The notes beneath the pieces are model-generated. The model did not search any database. It worked only from the letters and a program-made list of their open reading frames with translations, and had not been told where the DNA came from. Both the position numbers and the translations under genes were made by a program. This document shows positions 19,357 through 26,939 of a stretch of 64,000 bases of DNA, piece after piece (position 1 is the stretch's first letter; the number at the start of each line of letters is the position of its first letter). Source of the DNA: Anaerolineales bacterium (GTDB taxonomy: Bacteria > Chloroflexota > Anaerolineae > Anaerolineales > Villigracilaceae). Location: NCBI GenBank assembly GCA_017985935.1, contig JAGNWT010000013.1, positions 1 through 64,000 of the forward strand, in the 5' to 3' direction.

Positions 19357-20598
19357 TTATTCTTTTTCTGCTTCGATCCCAGACTGTCCATTCGCGCGGC
19401 CGATCAATGGAATGGCAGGCAGCAACAACAAGCCCGAAGTGACCAGAGCCGAAGTGACTGACGACACCCCCGCCACGAACGCCACCAGTGGACCACCGCC
19501 CATCTGCCCGATCGCATCCACCTGCCCTGTGATGGAGTGAACCGTGGCGCGGGTCTGCGAATCAAGTTTTTGATTGACCCACGCCGTATAAAGCGGTCCC
19601 ATCACATTGCGCAGCACACTGATGACCAGGTACATGAGCAGGGTCAGTGTGAAGAAGGGCGAGATGGCAAACCCGATCAACCCGGCAGAGATGCCGAAAG
19701 TGATGCCCAGTGTTGCGCGCCCGATCGCAAGCGGGCTTCCCGTATCGATCCGCTTTTCTGCAAAGCGGGTGGCGGCGATCGCCAACAACATGCTCACCAC
19801 ACGCAGCGCCCCAAAGAAAGCCACATCCGTCTGACCGAATAACACAGGCAGTTCGTAATTATCGAGGATGTGCTTCACCCACAAGCGGTCGAATCCCTCG
19901 CTGTATAAACCATAGAACAAACCAACACCAAGGACGGTCATCAACCGCGGACGGGCTCGCACTGCCTTCAGTCCTTCGTTGAAGGTGTGCCACATGTGCT
20001 GCCATGTATTGCGGTCTTCCCTCGAGGTGGGATGAAATCCCGTTTCGGGCATGATGACGATCAAGGTCAGACCGATCAGGATCACGCCCACCGCACCGAT
20101 AATGATCGGCAGCCCCACTTGATTCGCGCCGAAAAATGCCGCGGCCGCCATCCCGATCAACGAGGCAGATAGCCCGACCTGATTGGCCCGCAGCATCAAT
20201 TTGTTGGCCGGGTCTTCGCCGATCTCGTCTGTGATCCACGCCTGGGTCGCTCCACTCGTGAAGGTGTACCCCAGCCCCCACACAATCTGCGCTATAAGGA
20301 TGGGCAGAAAGAAGGGAAACAGCCCTTCGATCAAAAAGCCAAGCCCCATGACAATATAGCCGATGATGATCGACAGACGGCGCGAGTACACGTCTGCCAC
20401 CACGCCCGTCGGCACCTCGAACAAAAATGCCGAGACCTCCAGCGTGGTGCCGACCAGCACCAATTGCAGGGGGGTGAGTCCCGCCACCGTGGCTTCATAC
20501 AAAGACATGGTCACGAACATCATCGAGAAAAAGACCGATGCCGAAAATTCAATGAACAGATAAACCTTCGATGCTTCAAATTTAAGATCTCTGAACAT
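19357..20598 (-). CDS. MFS transporter
   Basis: A 413-residue protein with about 12 membrane segments. The loop between helices 2 and 3 (EVPTGVVADVYSRR) is the family signature. I choose the ATG at 20598 over an in-frame TTG at 20604. The substrate cannot be read from sequence; drug export is plausible because the gene closes an operon of five acetyltransferases. An intrinsic terminator sits just 16 bases before its start, so its expression relative to the upstream genes may be conditional. Confidence 0.88.
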   Translation of the reverse strand: MFRDLKFEASKVYLFIEFSASVFFSMMFVTMSLYEATVAGLTPLQLVLVGTTLEVSAFLFEVPTGVVADVYSRRLSIIIGYIVMGLGFLIEGLFPFFLPILIAQIVWGLGYTFTSGATQAWITDEIGEDPANKLMLRANQVGLSASLIGMAAAAFFGANQVGLPIIIGAVGVILIGLTLIVIMPETGFHPTSREDRNTWQHMWHTFNEGLKAVRARPRLMTVLGVGLFYGLYSEGFDRLWVKHILDNYELPVLFGQTDVAFFGALRVVSMLLAIAATRFAEKRIDTGSPLAIGRATLGITFGISAGLIGFAISPFFTLTLLMYLVISVLRNVMGPLYTAWVNQKLDSQTRATVHSITGQVDAIGQMGGGPLVAFVAGVSSVTSALVTSGLLLLPAIPLIGRANGQSGIEAEKE

Positions 20599-20613
20599 GC
20601 TCAACTCTCATGG

Positions 20614-20664: not shown

Positions 20665-21270
20665 TTAGCGGGTCTTCAACAGGCGTTTCAGCCTGTCCAT
20701 GCTTTCCTGCGGATCTCCGAACAGGATGCCCTTCATTCCGACTTTTTCACAGGCTTCGATATTGACCGGCATATCATCAACAAAGACCGCTTCGGTCGCC
20801 TTGACCTTGGCCTGCTTCAGCGCGATCTCATAGATCCCAGCTGACGGCTTGACAATCCCCACCTCCGCCGAGATGACGACCGTGTCAAACACGCCGATCA
20901 CCTTTTCTTTGGTGATGAACTCACGCAGTCCGCTCCAGGCGTTCGAAATCAGTCCCGTGTGGAACTTTCCGCGCATGGATTGGATATCCGCCACCAATGA
21001 ACGGTCGATCACATCGCCGCCGAAGAACATGTCGCGAAAAGCCTGCATCTGGGATGCAGGCTGCTTAAATCTCTTCGCGATCTCCGCCCAGTGCTTTTCC
21101 TCGGTGATCTCGCCCAACGAAGCGCGCCGCGCCGACTCGCTGCCAAAGACAGCTTTGTCGATCTCGTCGTAGTCCATGTTGAAGCGTTCGGCAAGTTTCT
21201 GGCGCGGCGACTGGTACTCGGTCCGCATGATGACCCCGCCGAAGTCAAAAAAAACTGCGCGGATCGCCAT
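20665..21270 (-). CDS. HAD-superfamily hydrolase (subfamily IA)
   Basis: A 201-residue HAD phosphatase-like protein. Motif I is FFDFGGV with nucleophile Asp9; the usual second Asp is Gly11, as in the YihX/epoxide hydrolase-like branch. Motif II is SNAWSG, motif III the Lys in KPSAGIY, and motif IV VFVDDMPVNI. The helical cap (about 16-80) is the C1 type. The substrate is unknown. It follows the zinc-ribbon gene by 3 bases. Confidence 0.9.
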   Translation of the reverse strand: MAIRAVFFDFGGVIMRTEYQSPRQKLAERFNMDYDEIDKAVFGSESARRASLGEITEEKHWAEIAKRFKQPASQMQAFRDMFFGGDVIDRSLVADIQSMRGKFHTGLISNAWSGLREFITKEKVIGVFDTVVISAEVGIVKPSAGIYEIALKQAKVKATEAVFVDDMPVNIEACEKVGMKGILFGDPQESMDRLKRLLKTR

Positions 21271-21273
21271 TAC

Positions 21274-21705
21274 TTACTTCTTCTTGGGCTTGGCTTCAGG
21301 CTTGGCCGTGGTGGTCTTCTTCGCCTTGTCGGCGGGAGCCTTTGCAGCAGCCGGTTTCTTGGCCGGAGCCTTCGGAGCGGCGGGTTTCTTGGCCGCCTTT
21401 GCGGCAGGCTTCTTCTCAGCCGCCGCCTTGACCGTGGTCTTTGCAATGGGTTCCGTCTTTTGGAAGGCGGAGGCTGGAGCTTCCTCTTGCGCGGCGGGAG
21501 CATTTGCCATTTGCTTGGCGGCCTCCTGCCAGTTCGGGAAGAACAGCTCCATCCGTTGGCGCGAAATGGAGTTTGCACGGCGGCAACGCGGGCAGTGCGC
21601 ATCGTAATGATTTTGATGCTTTTCGTTCATGTGGACGATCGCGCTCAACATTTCCGAGCGCCCCAGGGTGAACGGGGTTTGGCAATAGATGCAACGCAGG
21701 TTCAT
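21274..21705 (-). CDS. Zinc-ribbon protein with Lys/Ala/Pro-rich tail
   Basis: A 143-residue protein. The N-terminal half has two Cys pairs, Cys5-x2-Cys8 and Cys38-x2-Cys41, with His-rich sequence between (HMNEKHQNHYDAH), a likely zinc site. From about residue 89 to the end it is almost only Lys, Ala and Pro (KKPAAKAAKKPAAPKAP), like histone H1 or mycobacterial HU tails, so it probably binds nucleic acid. SD GAAGGAG precedes the ATG. I do not know a named family with this combination. Confidence 0.85.
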   Translation of the reverse strand: MNLRCIYCQTPFTLGRSEMLSAIVHMNEKHQNHYDAHCPRCRRANSISRQRMELFFPNWQEAAKQMANAPAAQEEAPASAFQKTEPIAKTTVKAAAEKKPAAKAAKKPAAPKAPAKKPAAAKAPADKAKKTTTAKPEAKPKKK

Positions 21706-21735: not shown

Positions 21736-22767
21736 TTATGTTAACGATTCTACACTGATTTCACGTCCAGAGCGAATCGTCTTTTCGTACATGTCAGAAG
21801 TCGTCTGCGCGTGCATCCCGGCCTTCTCGTACAGCCTCAGGGCTCCGGTCAGGCTTTGAGCGTCCACATGCAGGCTGACGCTGTGCACGCCGCGTCGGCG
21901 GAACTCGCCAAAGCTGTGATGAAGGAGGGCAAGTCCCAGTCCGCGTTTGCGCCATGCGCGGCGGACGCCAAGGATGTTGATATAACCCGCCTCGGGGTCG
22001 TCGTAGGCTTTGGCGCGGCCCAGGCAGATCCCCGCCACTTCGTCACCGTCCATGGCAAGGAACCACAAGCTGGGGTCAAAATCTTCGCCCATCATAAAAT
22101 GCTTGAAGCGCGCCAGCCCCTCTTCAAAGGGAGCCTGGATGTAGCCAAAGTGATCGCAGAAGGCTTCATCGTCAGCCCGGTAGACCGCCTCAATGCCGAT
22201 CTCGGGAGTGAAGGTCTTGAGGGTGATGCCTTCCGCCCAAAGCGGAGCAGGAGGCGGCGCCTGCATGTCGATCCGCATTTGATAGGTGCTGCGGATGAGT
22301 TTATAGCCGAAATCCTCAAAGAGTTTTCGCGAGCCTTCGGCGGGACGGTAGGTGCCGATGCGAGGAGCAAAGCGCAGGTCTGTGGGCAGGTCAGGCAAAA
22401 CCTGACGAGCGCGTTCCTCTGCCCATTGCAAAAGCCATGAGCCTATGCCCAGATCGCTGAAATCGGGATGCACCCGCCCCCACATCCACGGGTGGACGGG
22501 CGGCTTCTGGGTGGTCCACACTTCGATGTAGCCGACCAGTTTTCCCTCTGGGGAGAAGACCACGCGGATATCGCGCGCGGGGTCAAAGTTGGGCGAGACC
22601 CATTCCCTGCGAATGGCATCCGCATCGTTGATGTCGTTCTTTTGAATGACAGACTGCGACCAGGCTTTGAACAGCTCCAAAGCAGGTTCAACGTCTTTCA
22701 TCTCGGCGCCGCGGGCGGTAAACCCGTGCGGCAGTTCAGTTTTCGTATTTTCAAGGATTGCGTTCAT
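21736..22767 (-). CDS. Tandem GNAT acetyltransferase (fifth GNAT of the operon)
   Basis: The ATG at 22767 has AGAGGAAAA upstream; a TTG at 22800 is not favoured. The 343-residue protein holds two GNAT domains, N-terminal (with HPDFSDLGIGSWLL) and C-terminal (RRAWRKRGLGLALL), the latter with the complete acetyl-CoA loop Arg-x2-Gly-x-Gly. The layout recalls mycothiol synthase-type double GNATs, but the substrate is unknown. It is about half identical by eye to its upstream neighbour in the C-terminal domain, so the pair arose by duplication. Confidence 0.88.
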   Translation of the reverse strand: MNAILENTKTELPHGFTARGAEMKDVEPALELFKAWSQSVIQKNDINDADAIRREWVSPNFDPARDIRVVFSPEGKLVGYIEVWTTQKPPVHPWMWGRVHPDFSDLGIGSWLLQWAEERARQVLPDLPTDLRFAPRIGTYRPAEGSRKLFEDFGYKLIRSTYQMRIDMQAPPPAPLWAEGITLKTFTPEIGIEAVYRADDEAFCDHFGYIQAPFEEGLARFKHFMMGEDFDPSLWFLAMDGDEVAGICLGRAKAYDDPEAGYINILGVRRAWRKRGLGLALLHHSFGEFRRRGVHSVSLHVDAQSLTGALRLYEKAGMHAQTTSDMYEKTIRSGREISVESLT

Positions 22768-22781
22768 TTTTCCTCTTGATC

Positions 22782-22802
22782 GTTTGCCAAACTCTGGCAA
22801 AC
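22782..22802 (-). other. Intercistronic hairpin between the two tandem-GNAT genes
   Basis: GTTTGCCA (22782-22789) and TGGCAAAC (22795-22802) form a perfect 8-base stem in the 41-base gap. No U run follows on the minus strand, so an RNA-stability or processing role is more likely than termination. Confidence 0.5.
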
Positions 22803-22808
22803 CTATTT

Positions 22809-23804
22809 TTATTCATTGTCCAGATCTCTTCCCGGGCGCAGTTCTTTTTCATACGTCAGGAATTCACTGGCGACGTGCATGCCCGCCCGCTGATAGAGCC
22901 GGGTGGCTCCGGTCGGGTTGGAGGCGTCCACGCCGAGACCTATGGTCGGCTTGCCGCGTTTGTAAAACTCACCAAAGGAATGTTGCAGCAAAGCGAGACC
23001 GAGTCCCTTTTTGCGCCACGGGCGGCGGACTCCCAAAGTACGGACCCAGCCAATGCCCATGCGGAAACGGTTGAGGGAGAATCCCGCCACCTCGTTCCCT
23101 TCCCAGGCAATAGCCCAAAGCGACGGGTCAAACTCGGGGTCTTCAAAGCGGCTGTGGGTGAATTCTTCAAAGGTCACATCGCGGCTGCCCCAATGGTCGC
23201 GGAAGGATTCGTTCTGAGCCTGCCACACGGCAACCGCATGATCATCCCTGACGAAGGGACGCAGTTCAACGCCCGCGGGGAAGACAGGCGCGGGCGGCGC
23301 TTCCTGCAGGTTGATCTCCATGCGCCAGTGATAGCGCTTTGGGAAGTAGCCCTCATTCTTGTGAAGGTCGTGGCTCGAAGGGTCTTTCGCATCGATCGTG
23401 CTGCGGATGAACACCCGCAGGTCTGGCTCGGCAAGGAGCATGTCTTCGCGGGCGCGAACTTCAACGCGGCGCAGCAGGCTTGTGCCAATGCCCAGCCCTT
23501 TGAAATTGGGGTGGACGTATCCATCCGCGTGCAATTTGTAGTGGGCATTCTCATTGGCAAATTCTTCAAAGCCAACAATCCGCCCGTCGGAAGTTTCAAC
23601 AACGAAGGCATCAGATTCCAAGTTGAAGTCTTCGCTCTCCCATTCGTGTTTAAGTTCCTCAGGCGTGACCGCCACGGTGGTGTCGCCGTCCGCTTCGCAG
23701 ACATCGTAGATGAGCTGTGCCACAGCGTTGACATCTGCCCATTGAGCAGGACGCAGGCGCAGGCTTGAGTCAAGATTCGTATTGTTGATCACAGGTTGTG
23801 TCAT
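22809..23804 (-). CDS. Tandem GNAT acetyltransferase (fourth GNAT of the operon)
   Basis: The ATG at 23804 overlaps the previous stop by 4 bases (ATGA) and has GGAG upstream. The 331-residue protein has two GNAT domains: the N-terminal one has HPNFKGLGIGTSLL and the C-terminal one RRPWRKKGLGLALLQHSF. It is the paralogue of the following tandem GNAT. Target unknown; candidates include small amines, antibiotics or thiol conjugates. Confidence 0.88.
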   Translation of the reverse strand: MTQPVINNTNLDSSLRLRPAQWADVNAVAQLIYDVCEADGDTTVAVTPEELKHEWESEDFNLESDAFVVETSDGRIVGFEEFANENAHYKLHADGYVHPNFKGLGIGTSLLRRVEVRAREDMLLAEPDLRVFIRSTIDAKDPSSHDLHKNEGYFPKRYHWRMEINLQEAPPAPVFPAGVELRPFVRDDHAVAVWQAQNESFRDHWGSRDVTFEEFTHSRFEDPEFDPSLWAIAWEGNEVAGFSLNRFRMGIGWVRTLGVRRPWRKKGLGLALLQHSFGEFYKRGKPTIGLGVDASNPTGATRLYQRAGMHVASEFLTYEKELRPGRDLDNE

Positions 23805-24358
23805 GGGTTCTTCTCCATCCATTCTTCACGCAGGATGCCCATGTAGAGCATATCCCAGCGTGTTCCATCTTTCAAAAGCGCGCCGCGCATGCGTCCTTCA
23901 AGTTTGAAGCCAGCCTTCTCGTAGGAACGAACGGCGCGCGGGTTATATTCAAAAACGGTCAGTGTCACACGGCGCAGGTTGAGTTCGGTGAACACAAAAC
24001 GCAAACCGATATTCATGGCATCGGTGCCATAGCCCCTGCCCCAATCGGCACGGCTGCCAATGCCGATCCCTACAAAGGCATCACGCGAACCCCAACTGTT
24101 GATGACATCGAAGTTGATGTCTCCCAGCAGACGGTCATCATCCAGCGCGCGGATGCTGAAATAATGACTGGCAGGCGAAGGCTCGAGCGTTTCCTTCTCA
24201 AAAAATTCCTTGATGGCTTTGATGGAATGCAGGCGCGCTCTTGTATCCATCAAGCGGGTCAGTTCCGTATCCTGATTCCATGCCGCATAGGCTTTGGCAA
24301 GTTCTTCATGGTCCACTGCCGCCAGGCGTACCAGGCTGCCTTTCAGAATGTCTTTCAT
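23801..24358 (-). CDS. GNAT acetyltransferase, RimJ/RimL-like (third of the operon)
   Basis: The ATG at 24358 overlaps the upstream stop by 4 bases and has AGGAGGCG just before it. The 185-residue single-domain GNAT has the acetyl-CoA loop in GRGYGTDAMNIGL and the C-terminal FEYNPRAVRSYEKAGF typical of RimJ/RimL-type N-acetyltransferases. It is closely similar to the next upstream gene (shared MKD opening and WNQDTE), a recent tandem duplicate. Confidence 0.88.
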   Translation of the reverse strand: MKDILKGSLVRLAAVDHEELAKAYAAWNQDTELTRLMDTRARLHSIKAIKEFFEKETLEPSPASHYFSIRALDDDRLLGDINFDVINSWGSRDAFVGIGIGSRADWGRGYGTDAMNIGLRFVFTELNLRRVTLTVFEYNPRAVRSYEKAGFKLEGRMRGALLKDGTRWDMLYMGILREEWMEKNP

Positions 24359-24915
24359 TTCGCCTCCTGTTGGGCGAGCCATTCCTCACGCAGCAACCCC
24401 ATATAGATTCCATCGTAACGGACGCCTTCGCGCTGACCATCGCTGCGTTGAACGCCCTCCACCACGAAGCCGACCTTTTGATAGGTCTTCAACGCGCGCG
24501 TGTTATAGGAGTTCAACGCCAATGTGATGCGGCGCAGATTCAATTCCAAAAATCCAAATTGCACGATCAGACGCATGGCATCGGTGCCGTAACCCTTGCT
24601 CCAGTAGTCACGGTCACCGATGAAAATAAACAACCAGCCGTCTCCATGCGCCCATTCAGGGACAAGCCCCACCACACCGATGAACTTCTCCTCTGCCAGT
24701 GTGCAGATCGAGAAACGGTACGCGCGCGGGTCTTTTGAAAACTGCTCGCGCTCGACATTCTCTTTGATCTTTTTTTCAGAGAGCAGCCGCGCGGGGCGGT
24801 CATCTGCGAGGCGGTGGAATTCGGTATCCTGATTCCAGCGGGCAAAGTGTCTGGCAAGTTCCTCAGGCGACGAAGCAGATAAGCGGACGAGGGATCCGCG
24901 ATACAGGTCTTTCAT
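24355..24915 (-). CDS. GNAT acetyltransferase, RimJ/RimL-like (second of the operon)
   Basis: A 186-residue single-domain GNAT with SKGYGTDAMRLIVQF as the acetyl-CoA loop and SYNTRALKTYQKVGF near the C-terminus. It lies 9 bases after the first GNAT and shares its stop with the start of the third. Its opening residues (MKDLYRGSLVRLSA) match the third GNAT, which supports local duplication. Confidence 0.88.
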   Translation of the reverse strand: MKDLYRGSLVRLSASSPEELARHFARWNQDTEFHRLADDRPARLLSEKKIKENVEREQFSKDPRAYRFSICTLAEEKFIGVVGLVPEWAHGDGWLFIFIGDRDYWSKGYGTDAMRLIVQFGFLELNLRRITLALNSYNTRALKTYQKVGFVVEGVQRSDGQREGVRYDGIYMGLLREEWLAQQEAK

Positions 24916-24924
24916 CGCATCTCC

Positions 24925-25503
24925 CTACGCCGCAGCCTGCTCCCGCCATTCGGAATTTAACAAGCCGAAAGAGACGAGGTCCCAAAATTCTCCATCACGA
25001 TTAATCGCTTTGCGCCTGCGGATCTCCTCCACAAAACCAAACTTCTGGAAGAGACGGATCGCGCCATCGTTATAGGCTGGCGTCACCGCAGTCACACGGA
25101 ACAGGTTCAGCTCGCTGAAAGCGTAGCGCAGAAGCATGCTCAGTGCCTGCGAGCCATATCCCTTGCGGCGGTCTTCAGCCGCGCCAATACCCAGGCGGAT
25201 AAAGCCGTTGCCGTTCGCCCAATCGATCCACTCGACCAGCGCCTTGCCGACCAAACGGTCGTCTTCACGGGCGCGGATGGTGAAGTAGAACAGGTTTCTG
25301 TCCTCTTCCATTTCCTTTTCGATGGCTTCGTACTGCTTCTTGACCATGGCAGGCGAAAGCGGGCGGATGGGTTTCAGGTCATACAGGCGCATGAATTCGG
25401 CGTCATGCGTCCATTTGGATTCGACAGCGGGATGCGTTTCGTGGTCAATGGGTCCGAAACGGATATCCTGAGCTTCAAAGAGTTGCGTTTGTATGCCTAA
25501 CAT
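24925..25503 (-). CDS. GNAT acetyltransferase, RimJ/RimL-like (first of the operon)
   Basis: The ATG at 25503 has GGAGGAAG upstream and is only 18 bases after the U run of an intrinsic terminator (25521-25560). The 192-residue single-domain GNAT has DRRKGYGSQALSMLLR and PAYNDGAIRLFQKFGF. Because no promoter fits between the terminator and this start, its transcription must come from the leader upstream by read-through. It leads five GNAT genes, a zinc-ribbon gene, a HAD gene and an MFS gene. Confidence 0.88.
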   Translation of the reverse strand: MLGIQTQLFEAQDIRFGPIDHETHPAVESKWTHDAEFMRLYDLKPIRPLSPAMVKKQYEAIEKEMEEDRNLFYFTIRAREDDRLVGKALVEWIDWANGNGFIRLGIGAAEDRRKGYGSQALSMLLRYAFSELNLFRVTAVTPAYNDGAIRLFQKFGFVEEIRRRKAINRDGEFWDLVSFGLLNSEWREQAAA

Positions 25504-25520: not shown

Positions 25521-25560
25521 CAAAAAAAACGGTCACAGGTTACTGTTAACCCGTGACCGC
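25521..25560 (-). terminator. Intrinsic terminator T2 directly before the GNAT operon
   Basis: On the minus strand CGGTCACGGGTTA (25559-25547) pairs with TAACCTGTGACCG (25542-25530), 13 pairs with one G-U, loop of 4, followed by eight T. The stem sequence is nearly the same as that of T1, 17 bases upstream. The T run ends 18 bases before the first GNAT ATG. Confidence 0.9.
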
Positions 25561-25576
25561 CAAGAGGGGGATTAAA

Positions 25577-25615
25577 TAAAAAACGGTCACGGGCTTGCAG
25601 CAGCGCCGTGACCGT
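25577..25615 (-). terminator. Intrinsic terminator T1 after the leader ORF
   Basis: On the minus strand ACGGTCACGG (25615-25606) pairs perfectly with CCGTGACCGT (25592-25583), followed by six T. It begins 17 bases after the stop of the 27-codon leader ORF. Its 3' arm is also a perfect 10-base complement to the 5' arm of T2. Confidence 0.9.
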
Positions 25616-25632
25616 AAGACGACAAATAAGGT

Positions 25633-25716
25633 CTAACGATGAGCAGGCGCACTGCGAGAATCAAAATCGACATTGCCGATGGGAGATTGAGCGATGTAAA
25701 ACTTGTTCATGATCAT
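25633..25716 (-). CDS. 27-codon leader ORF upstream of the GNAT operon
   Basis: The ORF starts ATG-ATC-ATG at 25716 and has a strong SD (AAAGGAGG, about 9 bases away; the second ATG at 25710 is also possible). It encodes MIMNKFYIAQSPIGN followed by VDFDSRSAPAHR and ends in TAG. It is followed by T1, T2 and then the GNAT genes, and is preceded by a promoter. The arrangement is that of a regulatory leader peptide rather than an ordinary small protein. I do not recognise the peptide. Confidence 0.7.
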   Translation of the reverse strand: MIMNKFYIAQSPIGNVDFDSRSAPAHR

Positions 25717-25728
25717 TGGCGTGCGCCT
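25645..25728 (-). promoter_or_regulatory. Possible SD-sequestering pairing within the leader
   Basis: AGGCGCAC (25728-25721), which overlaps the end of the leader SD, is the exact complement of GTGCGCCT (25652-25645) near the end of the leader ORF. The pairing would close off initiation unless a ribosome is moving through the ORF. Confidence 0.45.
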
Positions 25729-25762
25729 CCTTTCTTTAGATTTGCTTTTTTCAAGCACGGCG

Positions 25763-25792
25763 AGTTTATCACGCAAGTGAAATCTTCGTCAA
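25763..25792 (-). promoter_or_regulatory. Promoter of the GNAT operon leader
   Basis: On the minus strand TTGACG (25792-25787) and TAAACT (25768-25763) are 18 bases apart. Transcription should start near 25756, about 40 bases before the leader ORF. The -35 matches consensus in five of six positions. Confidence 0.65.
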
Positions 25793-25877
25793 GGAGTTAA
25801 TAAAAATTTCAGGTTGAAATGTCAGACCAATTTAAAAAATTGTAAACAACTGCGCGGCACGCGGTTCTATTTGAAAT

Positions 25878-25912
25878 AAAAAGATCGGCGGTCCTGGACC
25901 GCCGATCTTTTT
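25878..25912 (-). terminator. Intrinsic terminator of the BMP-like lipoprotein gene
   Basis: GATCGGCGGTC (25883-25893) pairs with GACCGCCGATC (25897-25907), flanked by A5 and T5, so it can work in both directions. It lies 1 base after the stop of the lipoprotein gene. Confidence 0.9.
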
Positions 25913-25913
25913 A

Positions 25914-26939
25914 TTATGGAGTAGTCGGTAAAATTCGACCTGCCAGCAGATTATCCAGAGTTTCCTGCGCTAGACGAAGCCGCCCGGGGGTGAGCAGGCT
26001 TGGGTCCACATCTGCAAGCCCGAGCGGAGATTGAACGTTGATTCCACCCTGCCCGGCGATCAAGTTGGGCCAGGCGGTCTGGATCGCCTTGACCGTATCC
26101 GGGCGAATGGTCGCCACCCAACCGCCAGGGCGCGGTTCGGGCATCGAAGTCCCCATTAACAGCACACCCTGTGTGCCCACATAGGTCAGGAAGTCGGCAT
26201 CTGCCACAGACGGGTAGATGTAAAGTGCATCCACATCACGGTCGTTGATCAGCACATTGGCGTACCCGCCGTAGTTGCCGACCTTTTCATCGGCTGGGAT
26301 CTCGATGAATTGAGGGTAGCCATAAGTGGTTAAATAAAATGTGCGGCACGCTCCGCAGTAATACGTGCGCCCGTTAACGAAGGCGTTGTAGGCGCGTTGG
26401 GCTTCGCCGTTTCCCTGCGGGATGACCATGCCCGTGTGGTATTCCTCCACCAGCATCGCCAGGATGTAGCCTGCGAGGAAGGCAGGCAGTTCCACCTGCG
26501 AGTCGCCTGCCAGCACGCTCACGTTCGCGCCTGCGGTCAGCCCGGAGATGTTAACCGCAAGGAACTGCACACCCGGCGCGGCAGGTGCGAAAGAAGCAAT
26601 GCCGGGGTCGGGCGGCAAAACAATGACCACTTTCAAGGTCGGGTCTGCAACATCGGCGGCGGTCAGCGTGTTGCGCACTTGAAAACGAAAACCAGATTGC
26701 TGGGTAAGGTCGTAAACAGTTTTTTGATAAAGGTCTGAGGTCGCCTTGTCCATATCGACAGGCAGCACCAGGATCGCCAGCGGCGTGGAAGGGGTGGGGA
26801 TCAAAGTGGGCGGAGGGAGCGGTGTATGAGACGGCACCGCTGTGGGTCCGGGGATCTCGGTCGGCTCGCTGCCGCCACAGGCGGTCAAAATAACGACGAC
26901 CAACATGGCAAGGAGAAATTTTTTTACGCGCAAGTTCAT
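25914..26939 (-). CDS. BMP/periplasmic-binding-like lipoprotein
   Basis: A 341-residue lipoprotein: signal with lipobox ending Leu-Thr-Ala-Cys20, then a Pro/Thr-rich linker to about residue 52. The mature domain has features of the basic membrane protein (BMP) branch of type 1 binding proteins (QTLTAADV-like strand starts, VQFLAVNISG, FLAGYILAML, QRAYNAFVNG). It carries three or more Tyr/Cys-rich loops (RTYYCGACRTFYL). The ligand is unknown; BMP relatives bind nucleosides. TATAAT at 26963-26968 (minus) precedes the gene, which has SD GGAG. Confidence 0.75.
   Translation of the reverse strand: MNLRVKKFLLAMLVVVILTACGGSEPTEIPGPTAVPSHTPLPPPTLIPTPSTPLAILVLPVDMDKATSDLYQKTVYDLTQQSGFRFQVRNTLTAADVADPTLKVVIVLPPDPGIASFAPAAPGVQFLAVNISGLTAGANVSVLAGDSQVELPAFLAGYILAMLVEEYHTGMVIPQGNGEAQRAYNAFVNGRTYYCGACRTFYLTTYGYPQFIEIPADEKVGNYGGYANVLINDRDVDALYIYPSVADADFLTYVGTQGVLLMGTSMPEPRPGGWVATIRPDTVKAIQTAWPNLIAGQGGINVQSPLGLADVDPSLLTPGRLRLAQETLDNLLAGRILPTTP

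Follow-up and report, generated by a model that had tools for sequence, protein, structure and literature searches.

Organization of the GNAT operon and its leader

The operon studied here lies on the minus strand of a 64,000-nucleotide stretch of DNA (the window, whose positions are used throughout). It encodes five GNAT proteins, of which three are single and two double, followed by a small protein with CxxC pairs, a HAD-family hydrolase and an MFS transporter:

24925–25503 (−): GNAT 1, of the Acetyltransf_3 type (Pfam), with its ATG at 25503
24355–24915 (−): GNAT 2
23801–24382 (−): GNAT 3
22809–23822 (−): GNAT 4, with two GNAT stretches
21736–22800 (−): GNAT 5, with two GNAT stretches
21274–21705 (−): small protein with CxxC pairs
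20665–21270 (−): HAD-family hydrolase
19357–20604 (−): MFS transporter resembling TetA(P)/Tet(40)

The small protein has no match in Pfam, and from reading its sequence we take it to be zinc-ribbon-like. Among nine related stretches the hydrolase was matched in nine, the small protein in four and the transporter in two, counts that are affected by the differing and limited lengths of these stretches. Judging from spacing and strand, the MFS gene probably belongs to the operon; its resemblance to TetA(P) and Tet(40) lies below the curated NCBIfam cut-offs (303.2 vs. 750 bits and 290.3 vs. 800 bits, respectively).

Upstream of the first GNAT gene we identified a leader with the following elements, numbered as six segments in the direction of transcription:

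25763–25792 (−): promoter by sequence inspection, −35 TTGACG and −10 TAAACT
25721–25728 (−): segment 1, the SD-adjacent arm AGGCGCAC, which pairs with segment 2 (1:2)
25633–25716 (−): leader ORF of 27 codons, MIMNKFYIAQSPIGNVDFDSRSAPAHR, with ATG at 25716, TAG at 25633 and the SD AAAGGAGG
25645–25655 (−): segment 2, the 3′ end of the ORF (GCAGTGCGCCT), partner of segment 1 or segment 3
25599–25615 (−): segment 3, the T1 5′ arm with the portion of the T1 loop that can pair with segment 2
25577–25615 (−): terminator T1 (3:4) with its T-run, stem 25615–25583, T-run to 25577
25584–25593 (−): segment 4, the T1 3′ arm CCCGTGACCG, complementary to segment 5
25550–25559 (−): segment 5, the T2 5′ arm CGGTCACGGG
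25521–25561 (−): terminator T2 (5:6) with its T-run, stem 25561–25528, segment 6 being the 3′ arm

A preliminary description of this DNA had located the promoter, the 27-codon ORF with a strong SD, both terminators and a 10-base complement between them, and each of these was recovered at the same positions. The pairing of segment 2 with the SD-adjacent arm (1:2) and its alternative pairing with segment 3 (2:3) were absent from that description.

The promoter-like site taken alone is not above chance, as 5 such sites occur in 10 kb where 4.5 are expected. The promoter pattern recurs in all parsed leaders: a permissive TTGA-N-TGNTA lies no farther than 75 nt from the SD on its upstream side, a count of 56 of 56 taken without a shuffled control. 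Within the window sequence, no further minus-strand promoter-like site is present between 25792–25763 and the GNAT start. The gene upstream of the leader has a terminator-like hairpin of its own, a 20-bp inverted repeat at 25875–25915, which makes it unlikely that T1 and T2 represent the 3′ end of that gene. The 254-nt leader has a predicted folding energy of −86.4 kcal/mol; 200 shuffled sequences average −62.9 (sd 3.9; z −6.0), and none of them was equally stable.

Conservation and distribution of the leader

When 120 genomes from the same family were searched at the DNA level, the 25 best other genomes showed 69–78% identity to the leader (E-values 4.5e-53 to 2.4e-10). Most of the named relatives are metagenome-assembled genomes assigned to Anaerolineales or Chloroflexi. 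As proposed in the preliminary description, the leader was sought in front of GNAT genes elsewhere. Of 61 upstream regions from relatives, 58 hold it by one or both of two parses (51 in the first, 56 in the second). These regions comprise 59 located through GNAT1 orthologues and two located through GNAT5-type genes (G054, G114); the 59 are the best protein matches plus G065 and G047, with several weaker matches such as G086, G055, G057 and G036 omitted. The three regions without a leader in either parse were G010, G013 and G026. For G010 and G013 a covariance model spanning the SD to T1 gave a match approximately 1 kb upstream of the GNAT gene, and for G026 on another contig. Of a further set of 45 loci, which overlaps with the set from the genome searches, 42 were tried, with five lacking a parsed leader.

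The covariance model matched 141 of 152 family genomes, including 85 of the 88 with at least 90% completeness and at most 5% contamination. Among 350 genomes sampled over the phylum 35 were matched, 20 of which are in the same family, eight elsewhere in the order, three in the class and four beyond; a weak match close to the threshold, such as G259, may be spurious. At the gathering threshold, Rfam release 15 identified only a tRNA in the window and no leader family, and matches at the leader itself were weak (≤18.8 bits, far below the family cut-offs).

The leader ORF is coding, with constraint mainly at the C-terminus

A GCGYC core lies in the same reading frame in all 56 parsed family leaders, whose ORFs range from 23 to 33 codons. 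In 34 leaders of equal length, codons 20–27 have a pN/pS of 0.42, whereas the two other frames give 3.71 and 0.97; for codons 4–19 the values are 0.88 in frame and 1.02 and 1.05 out of frame. From this sequence comparison we conclude that the leader ORF is coding and that constraint acts mainly on its C-terminus. The shared frame and the constraint in frame 0 are what is expected, at the level of sequence, of the translated ORF of a ribosome-mediated attenuator. The strongest constraint lies C-terminally and not at the start, where a stall model would want stalling to occur.

The conserved C-terminus of the peptide reads [D/P]-[S/C]-R-S-A-P-x-x-R-stop. Arg, encoded by five different codons, is the final residue of 64 of the 76 distinct ORFs, and the Ser at position −8 is encoded by both TCN and AGC, such that synonymous switches occur at both Arg and Ser. 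The Ala codon is GCG in 72 of 72 cases, and conservation of the peptide end is therefore partly RNA-driven. The R-S-A-P motif recurs in the leaders of ABC, GNAT and ABC-F genes, and ABC-type leaders often have PSRSAPVDR or PSRSAPIDR near the end. Exceptions in the wider leader set are G452:C27 and G246:C23, whose leaders lack the motif or have it in another frame.

Alternative pairings in the leader

Segment 2 (the GTGCGCC region) is complementary to segment 1 (GGCGCAC by the SD) as well as to the loop and 5′ arm of T1, and positions 25593–25584 (CCCGTGACCG) form an exact 10-base complement of 25559–25550 (CGGTCACGGG). T1, a hairpin with T-run that provides an intrinsic terminator between the ORF and the first gene, is present in 55 of the 56 parsed leaders, and T2 in 47. 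In genus g17, no T2 was found past T1 in leaders L057, L059, L062, L064 and L055; several of these have another inverted repeat, rich in CCCTCTCCC, in the space before the GNAT gene.

We scored the pairings in 64 aligned leaders (2 of 66, longer than 240 nt, were excluded) by counting canonical cells, and in a swap test by the fraction of swapped partners that pair better than a leader's own (55 leaders, 47 with T2):

1:2: 479/507 canonical cells, swap fraction 0.115
3:4 (T1): 505/512 canonical cells, swap fraction 0.084
5:6 (T2): 611/638 canonical cells, swap fraction 0.101
4:5: 594/640 canonical cells, swap fraction 0.323
3:6: 514/574 canonical cells, swap fraction 0.377
2:3: 389/435 canonical cells, swap fraction 0.366

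For 2:3, swapped partners are as good in 35–37% of swaps over the whole sets because the core of segment 2 is nearly invariant. Over 56 leaders from other loci (60 loci, with G268, G276, G166 and G259 omitted) the fraction was 0.346, and in the 17 leaders whose segment 2 core differs from GTGCGCC it was 0.110. In 12 of the 16 correctly parsed rows of this divergent set (G018 was mis-parsed), only 0–5 of 55 swaps matched the leader's own 2:3 pairing; the less specific rows were G175 (32/55), G031:C14 (24/55), G445 (11/55) and G452:C27 (9/55). Shuffled T1 loops equalled the own pairing in fewer than 5% of trials for 43 of 56 leaders, and 1.7% of other ORF windows paired with the T1 loop as well as segment 2 does. 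By these comparisons, 2:3 tracks sequence change in divergent relatives.

The canonical fraction of 4:5 (0.928) exceeds a tree-based null (0.859, sd 0.038), with 0.4% of null values as high, and the aligned sequences thus indicate that T1 and T2 co-evolve. As 3:6 also exceeds its null (0.896 vs. 0.817, sd 0.048; 1.0% as high), 4:5 cannot be separated from it. When 41 leaders were scanned for covariation column by column, only two pairs reached E < 0.5, one in T2 (0.008) and one in T1 (0.025). The expectation of the preliminary description that the ORF and the paired arms are conserved in relatives is upheld by the occurrence of the leader, the co-evolving arms and the low C-terminal pN/pS. Together, the complementarity and co-variation of 2:3 and 4:5 predict an antiterminator that is mutually exclusive with the terminators.

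No common helix was found just after the stop codon of GNAT-type leaders, where a fixed-column hairpin test gave 99/283 canonical cells. A stem spanning the stop codon is found in 39 of 39 ABC-type leaders, with shuffled sequences equal or better in 277 of 780 cases and some rows mis-parsed. In ABC-type leaders such as L145, L147 and L151 the stop codon sits inside a small hairpin, often GACC..GGTC, with AACCGT/ACGGTT as variants.

Folding states and a model for the proposed switch

In the predicted minimum free energy structure, the window leader adopts a fused hairpin, with 3:6 enclosing 4:5, that still ends at the U-run of T2. Past the stop codon, this fused hairpin is the predicted structure in 15 of 66 leaders, and separate T1 and T2 hairpins in 51. 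Pairing of 4:5 had been put forward as the antiterminator; we rejected it as the sole antiterminator, since 3:6 closes a fused terminator around it. With the T2 U-run kept in this hairpin, 4:5 alone would not let polymerase pass, and read-through should therefore need segment 2 to hold segment 3.

When the first codons were blocked and the leader was folded up to segment 3, 2:3 formed in 62 of 66 leaders; because 2:3 still formed in 177 of 330 foldings with shuffled segment 2 letters, this result is suggestive only. A block corresponding to a ribosome at the stop codon gave T1 in 65 of 66. With segment 1 free, 2:3 outcompeted 1:2 in 34 of 66 leaders and 1:2 formed in 28, and the untranslated state is thus not clearly OFF. 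The ON state has a predicted energy of −31.0 kcal/mol, compared to −23.2 for T1 plus −22.6 for T2 (OFF is given hairpin by hairpin). As ON is far weaker than the two terminators together, kinetic trapping or timing must decide between the states.

Our preferred interpretation, to which we assign a probability of roughly 0.7, is that the leader is a ribosome-mediated transcription attenuator with two coupled terminators. Sequence comparison supports its parts, the coding constraint, the alternative pairings and the co-evolution of T1 and T2; the order of events and the position of the ribosome given here follow a model. The six segments would form two mutually exclusive sets of hairpins, 1:2, 3:4 and 5:6 for OFF, and 2:3 and 4:5 for ON. 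Normally, a ribosome entering at the strong SD would reach the stop codon and cover segment 2, which would block 2:3 and allow T1 to form, with T2 or the fused 3:6 hairpin acting as a second lock. A ribosome held on the first codons would cover segment 1 and leave segment 2 free to capture segment 3, such that T1 fails. The released segment 4 would then capture segment 5, leaving segment 6 without a partner, and polymerase would enter the GNAT operon. The preliminary idea of a leader-ORF attenuator with two coupled terminators in front of the GNAT operon is supported, with 4:5 losing its role as antiterminator on its own. The trigger is most likely exposure to translation-inhibiting compounds, as related leaders precede genes for ABC exporters, ABC-F proteins, GNATs and MFS transporters.

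The confinement of the constraint to codons 20–27, compared to 4–19, also fits a ligand-sensing nascent-chain arrest or slow termination at SRSAPxxR-stop, with the arrested ribosome setting the fate of the terminators. The terminal Arg, kept through five codons, and the recurrence of the motif before ABC, GNAT and ABC-F genes point the same way. Given the size of the ribosome footprint, however, a ribosome held at the C-terminus of the leader covers segment 2, and blocking that stretch in the folding favoured T1, i.e., the OFF state. Moreover, R-S-A-P differs from the RAPP/RAGP motif of known arrest peptides, and the invariant GCG assigns part of the conservation to the RNA. We consider such an arrest unlikely; a weaker form, in which a programmed pause at the stop codon covers segment 2 until T1 has formed, is compatible with the attenuator interpretation. 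The strong, conserved RNA structure and the invariable Ala codon would equally suit a riboswitch-like RNA that binds a ligand or protein, with the ORF being incidental. This is very improbable, as it is at odds with the strong SD, the single reading frame in all 56 leaders, constraint in frame 0 only, the synonymous switches at Arg and Ser and the lack of an Rfam match.

An attenuator of the trp type, responding to amino acid starvation, would share the general layout of leader ORF, terminator and alternative hairpins. We found no run of one regulatory codon in the leader peptides inspected, though, and codons 4–19 are nearly neutral. The C-terminal Arg codons overlie segment 2, so that a stall there would favour T1, and the downstream genes are exporters and acetyltransferases rather than biosynthetic genes. 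Starvation control was accordingly rejected as having hardly any likelihood, on the grounds of the missing codon run, the near-neutral codons and the non-biosynthetic genes. Least probable of all is a pair of unregulated tandem terminators. Because T1 nearly repeats T2, their cross-pairing may have arisen by duplication alone, and the ON state is energetically weak; against this, the upstream gene has its own hairpin (25875–25915), T1 and T2 co-evolve beyond the tree-based null, segment 2 varies in concert with the T1 loop, and the conserved promoter, SD and ORF would be left unexplained. The co-evolution, the joint change and the conserved elements led us to reject this explanation as well.

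Leader copies upstream of other genes

The window genome has two further copies of the leader, at C37:3864-4020 (L145, G000:C37:1-4600) and C45:28649-28799 (L146, G000:C45:23500-29300), each of which precedes a pair of ABC exporter genes. Both have a single terminator before the gene; the ABC-type leader of G370 has a second one. Solved relatives of the C37 pair include P-glycoprotein, TM288 and BmrCD chains. In relatives, leader copies precede genes for ABC exporters, GNAT/MFS proteins, ABC-F proteins, RsgA and RIO kinases. For 56 matches in the phylum, the first gene is an ABC exporter in 25, a GNAT operon in 21 (13 inside the family and eight outside), RsgA in three, a RIO kinase in three (that of G166 assigned by reading its frame) and ABC-F in one, with three lacking an assigned first gene (G082:C66 runs off the contig, G259 shows nothing and in G268 the only ABC-exporter match is to the third called ORF). 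The GNAT loci outside the family are G246:C5, G355, G339, G475, G445, G425, G418 and G452:C27, of which G246:C5 has an unassigned ORF ahead of the GNATs and G452:C27 an ABC ATPase first. Two ABC-F proteins, encoded by the first gene in L220 and by the second gene, behind a GNAT gene, in L219, score 434.8 and 415.3 bits, respectively, above the cut-off of 380 for the ribosomal-protection-like family NF000355.

This gene content suggests that the related leaders form a regulon of putative resistance genes, and the leader control of resistance genes envisaged in the preliminary description fits the company of ABC exporter, ABC-F and MFS genes. We give even odds to a broader interpretation, in which one leader RNA/peptide module serves as a regulon-wide ‘ribosome-stress box’ that would couple slow early translation to exporters, acetyltransferases, ABC-F, RsgA and RIO kinase. 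Whether such a box, present throughout one Chloroflexota family (probably Anaerolineales) and sparse beyond, serves many operons in the manner of a T-box or riboswitch is a toss-up. The chances are similarly balanced that the GNAT operon has a two-stage domino version of it, with the fused 3:6 hairpin as a fallback that would give tighter silence.

Outside the family, leader-like matches were observed before RsgA GTPase or RIO-kinase genes in L159, L163, L217, L211, L212 and L214; these genes have ribosome-associated functions rather than functions in resistance. A small protein (L156:2146-2538, minus strand, and seven similar proteins) is encoded between the two ABC genes; the copy in L156 corresponds to Pfam 23S_rRNA_IVP (65.8 bits).

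Comparison with known leader-based systems

To our knowledge, leader-peptide attenuators of resistance genes are single elements, mostly from Firmicutes. The ermK leader, which attenuates macrolide/lincosamide resistance, has several mutually exclusive terminators and in this respect resembles the leader described here. Leader-based transcription attenuation of macrolide/lincosamide resistance genes has also been reported for mef/mel (PMC4335068), msrD (PMC10314930) and vmlR (PMC9226507). As far as they are portrayed in the sources consulted, these leaders, like that of ermK, are apparently individual elements, whereas here one module precedes many operons.

The class of mechanism is known, and by analogy the leader would work like bmrB/bmrCD of Bacillus subtilis, in which a translated leader ORF is combined with an intrinsic terminator and a predicted antiterminator and anti-antiterminator (PMC4191407). 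Lincomycin, erythromycin and chloramphenicol induce bmrCD, whose products form a heterodimeric ABC multidrug exporter, and the bmrB antiterminator is less favourable than its terminator (PMC4191407). The systems appear to share the short leader ORF, the attenuation layout and an ON state weaker than the terminators, and the ABC pairs found here have BmrCD among their relatives. As bmrB is described there, a single terminator lies inside its 53-residue ORF, whereas the terminators here follow an ORF of 23–33 codons. Also unlike bmrB, so far as that account goes, the GNAT form has two coupled terminators, and the module stands before several gene classes.

A literature search yielded no such leader in Chloroflexota among the top-ranked matches, and ‘Chloroflex’ does not occur in the main text of PMC2965389. 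Going by Rfam and these top-ranked matches, the leader family, the regulon built on a shared module and the coupled double lock appear undescribed. What had been called a new attenuator is, accordingly, new as a family and of a known kind as a mechanism. As the module occurs in 141 of 152 family genomes and before several gene classes, it acts like a searchable tag; the tagged genes, GNATs and exporters among them, are probably deployed against translation inhibitors by mostly uncultured bacteria. If the ‘ribosome-stress box’ interpretation is true, the leader would flag a hidden resistome in a phylum with few cultured members.

Two further systems bear a partial likeness. RAPP/RAGP arrest peptides precede protein-localisation genes (PMC10951233, PMC10987492) and, as presented in these reports, are short regulatory peptides whose ends carry a conserved Arg..Ala-Pro, like the leader peptide here; the window motif, R-S-A-P-x-x-R-stop, falls outside RAPP/RAGP in a comparison made by motif alone. 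The shared R-S-A-P-x-x-R end raises the question of what a terminating ribosome does there. In E. coli, the short topAI-yjhQ uORF senses ribosome stalling by several antibiotic classes (PMC12121999). It is reported to control a toxin-antitoxin transcript, unlike the window leader, and the likeness lies in the use of a short ORF as a sensor.
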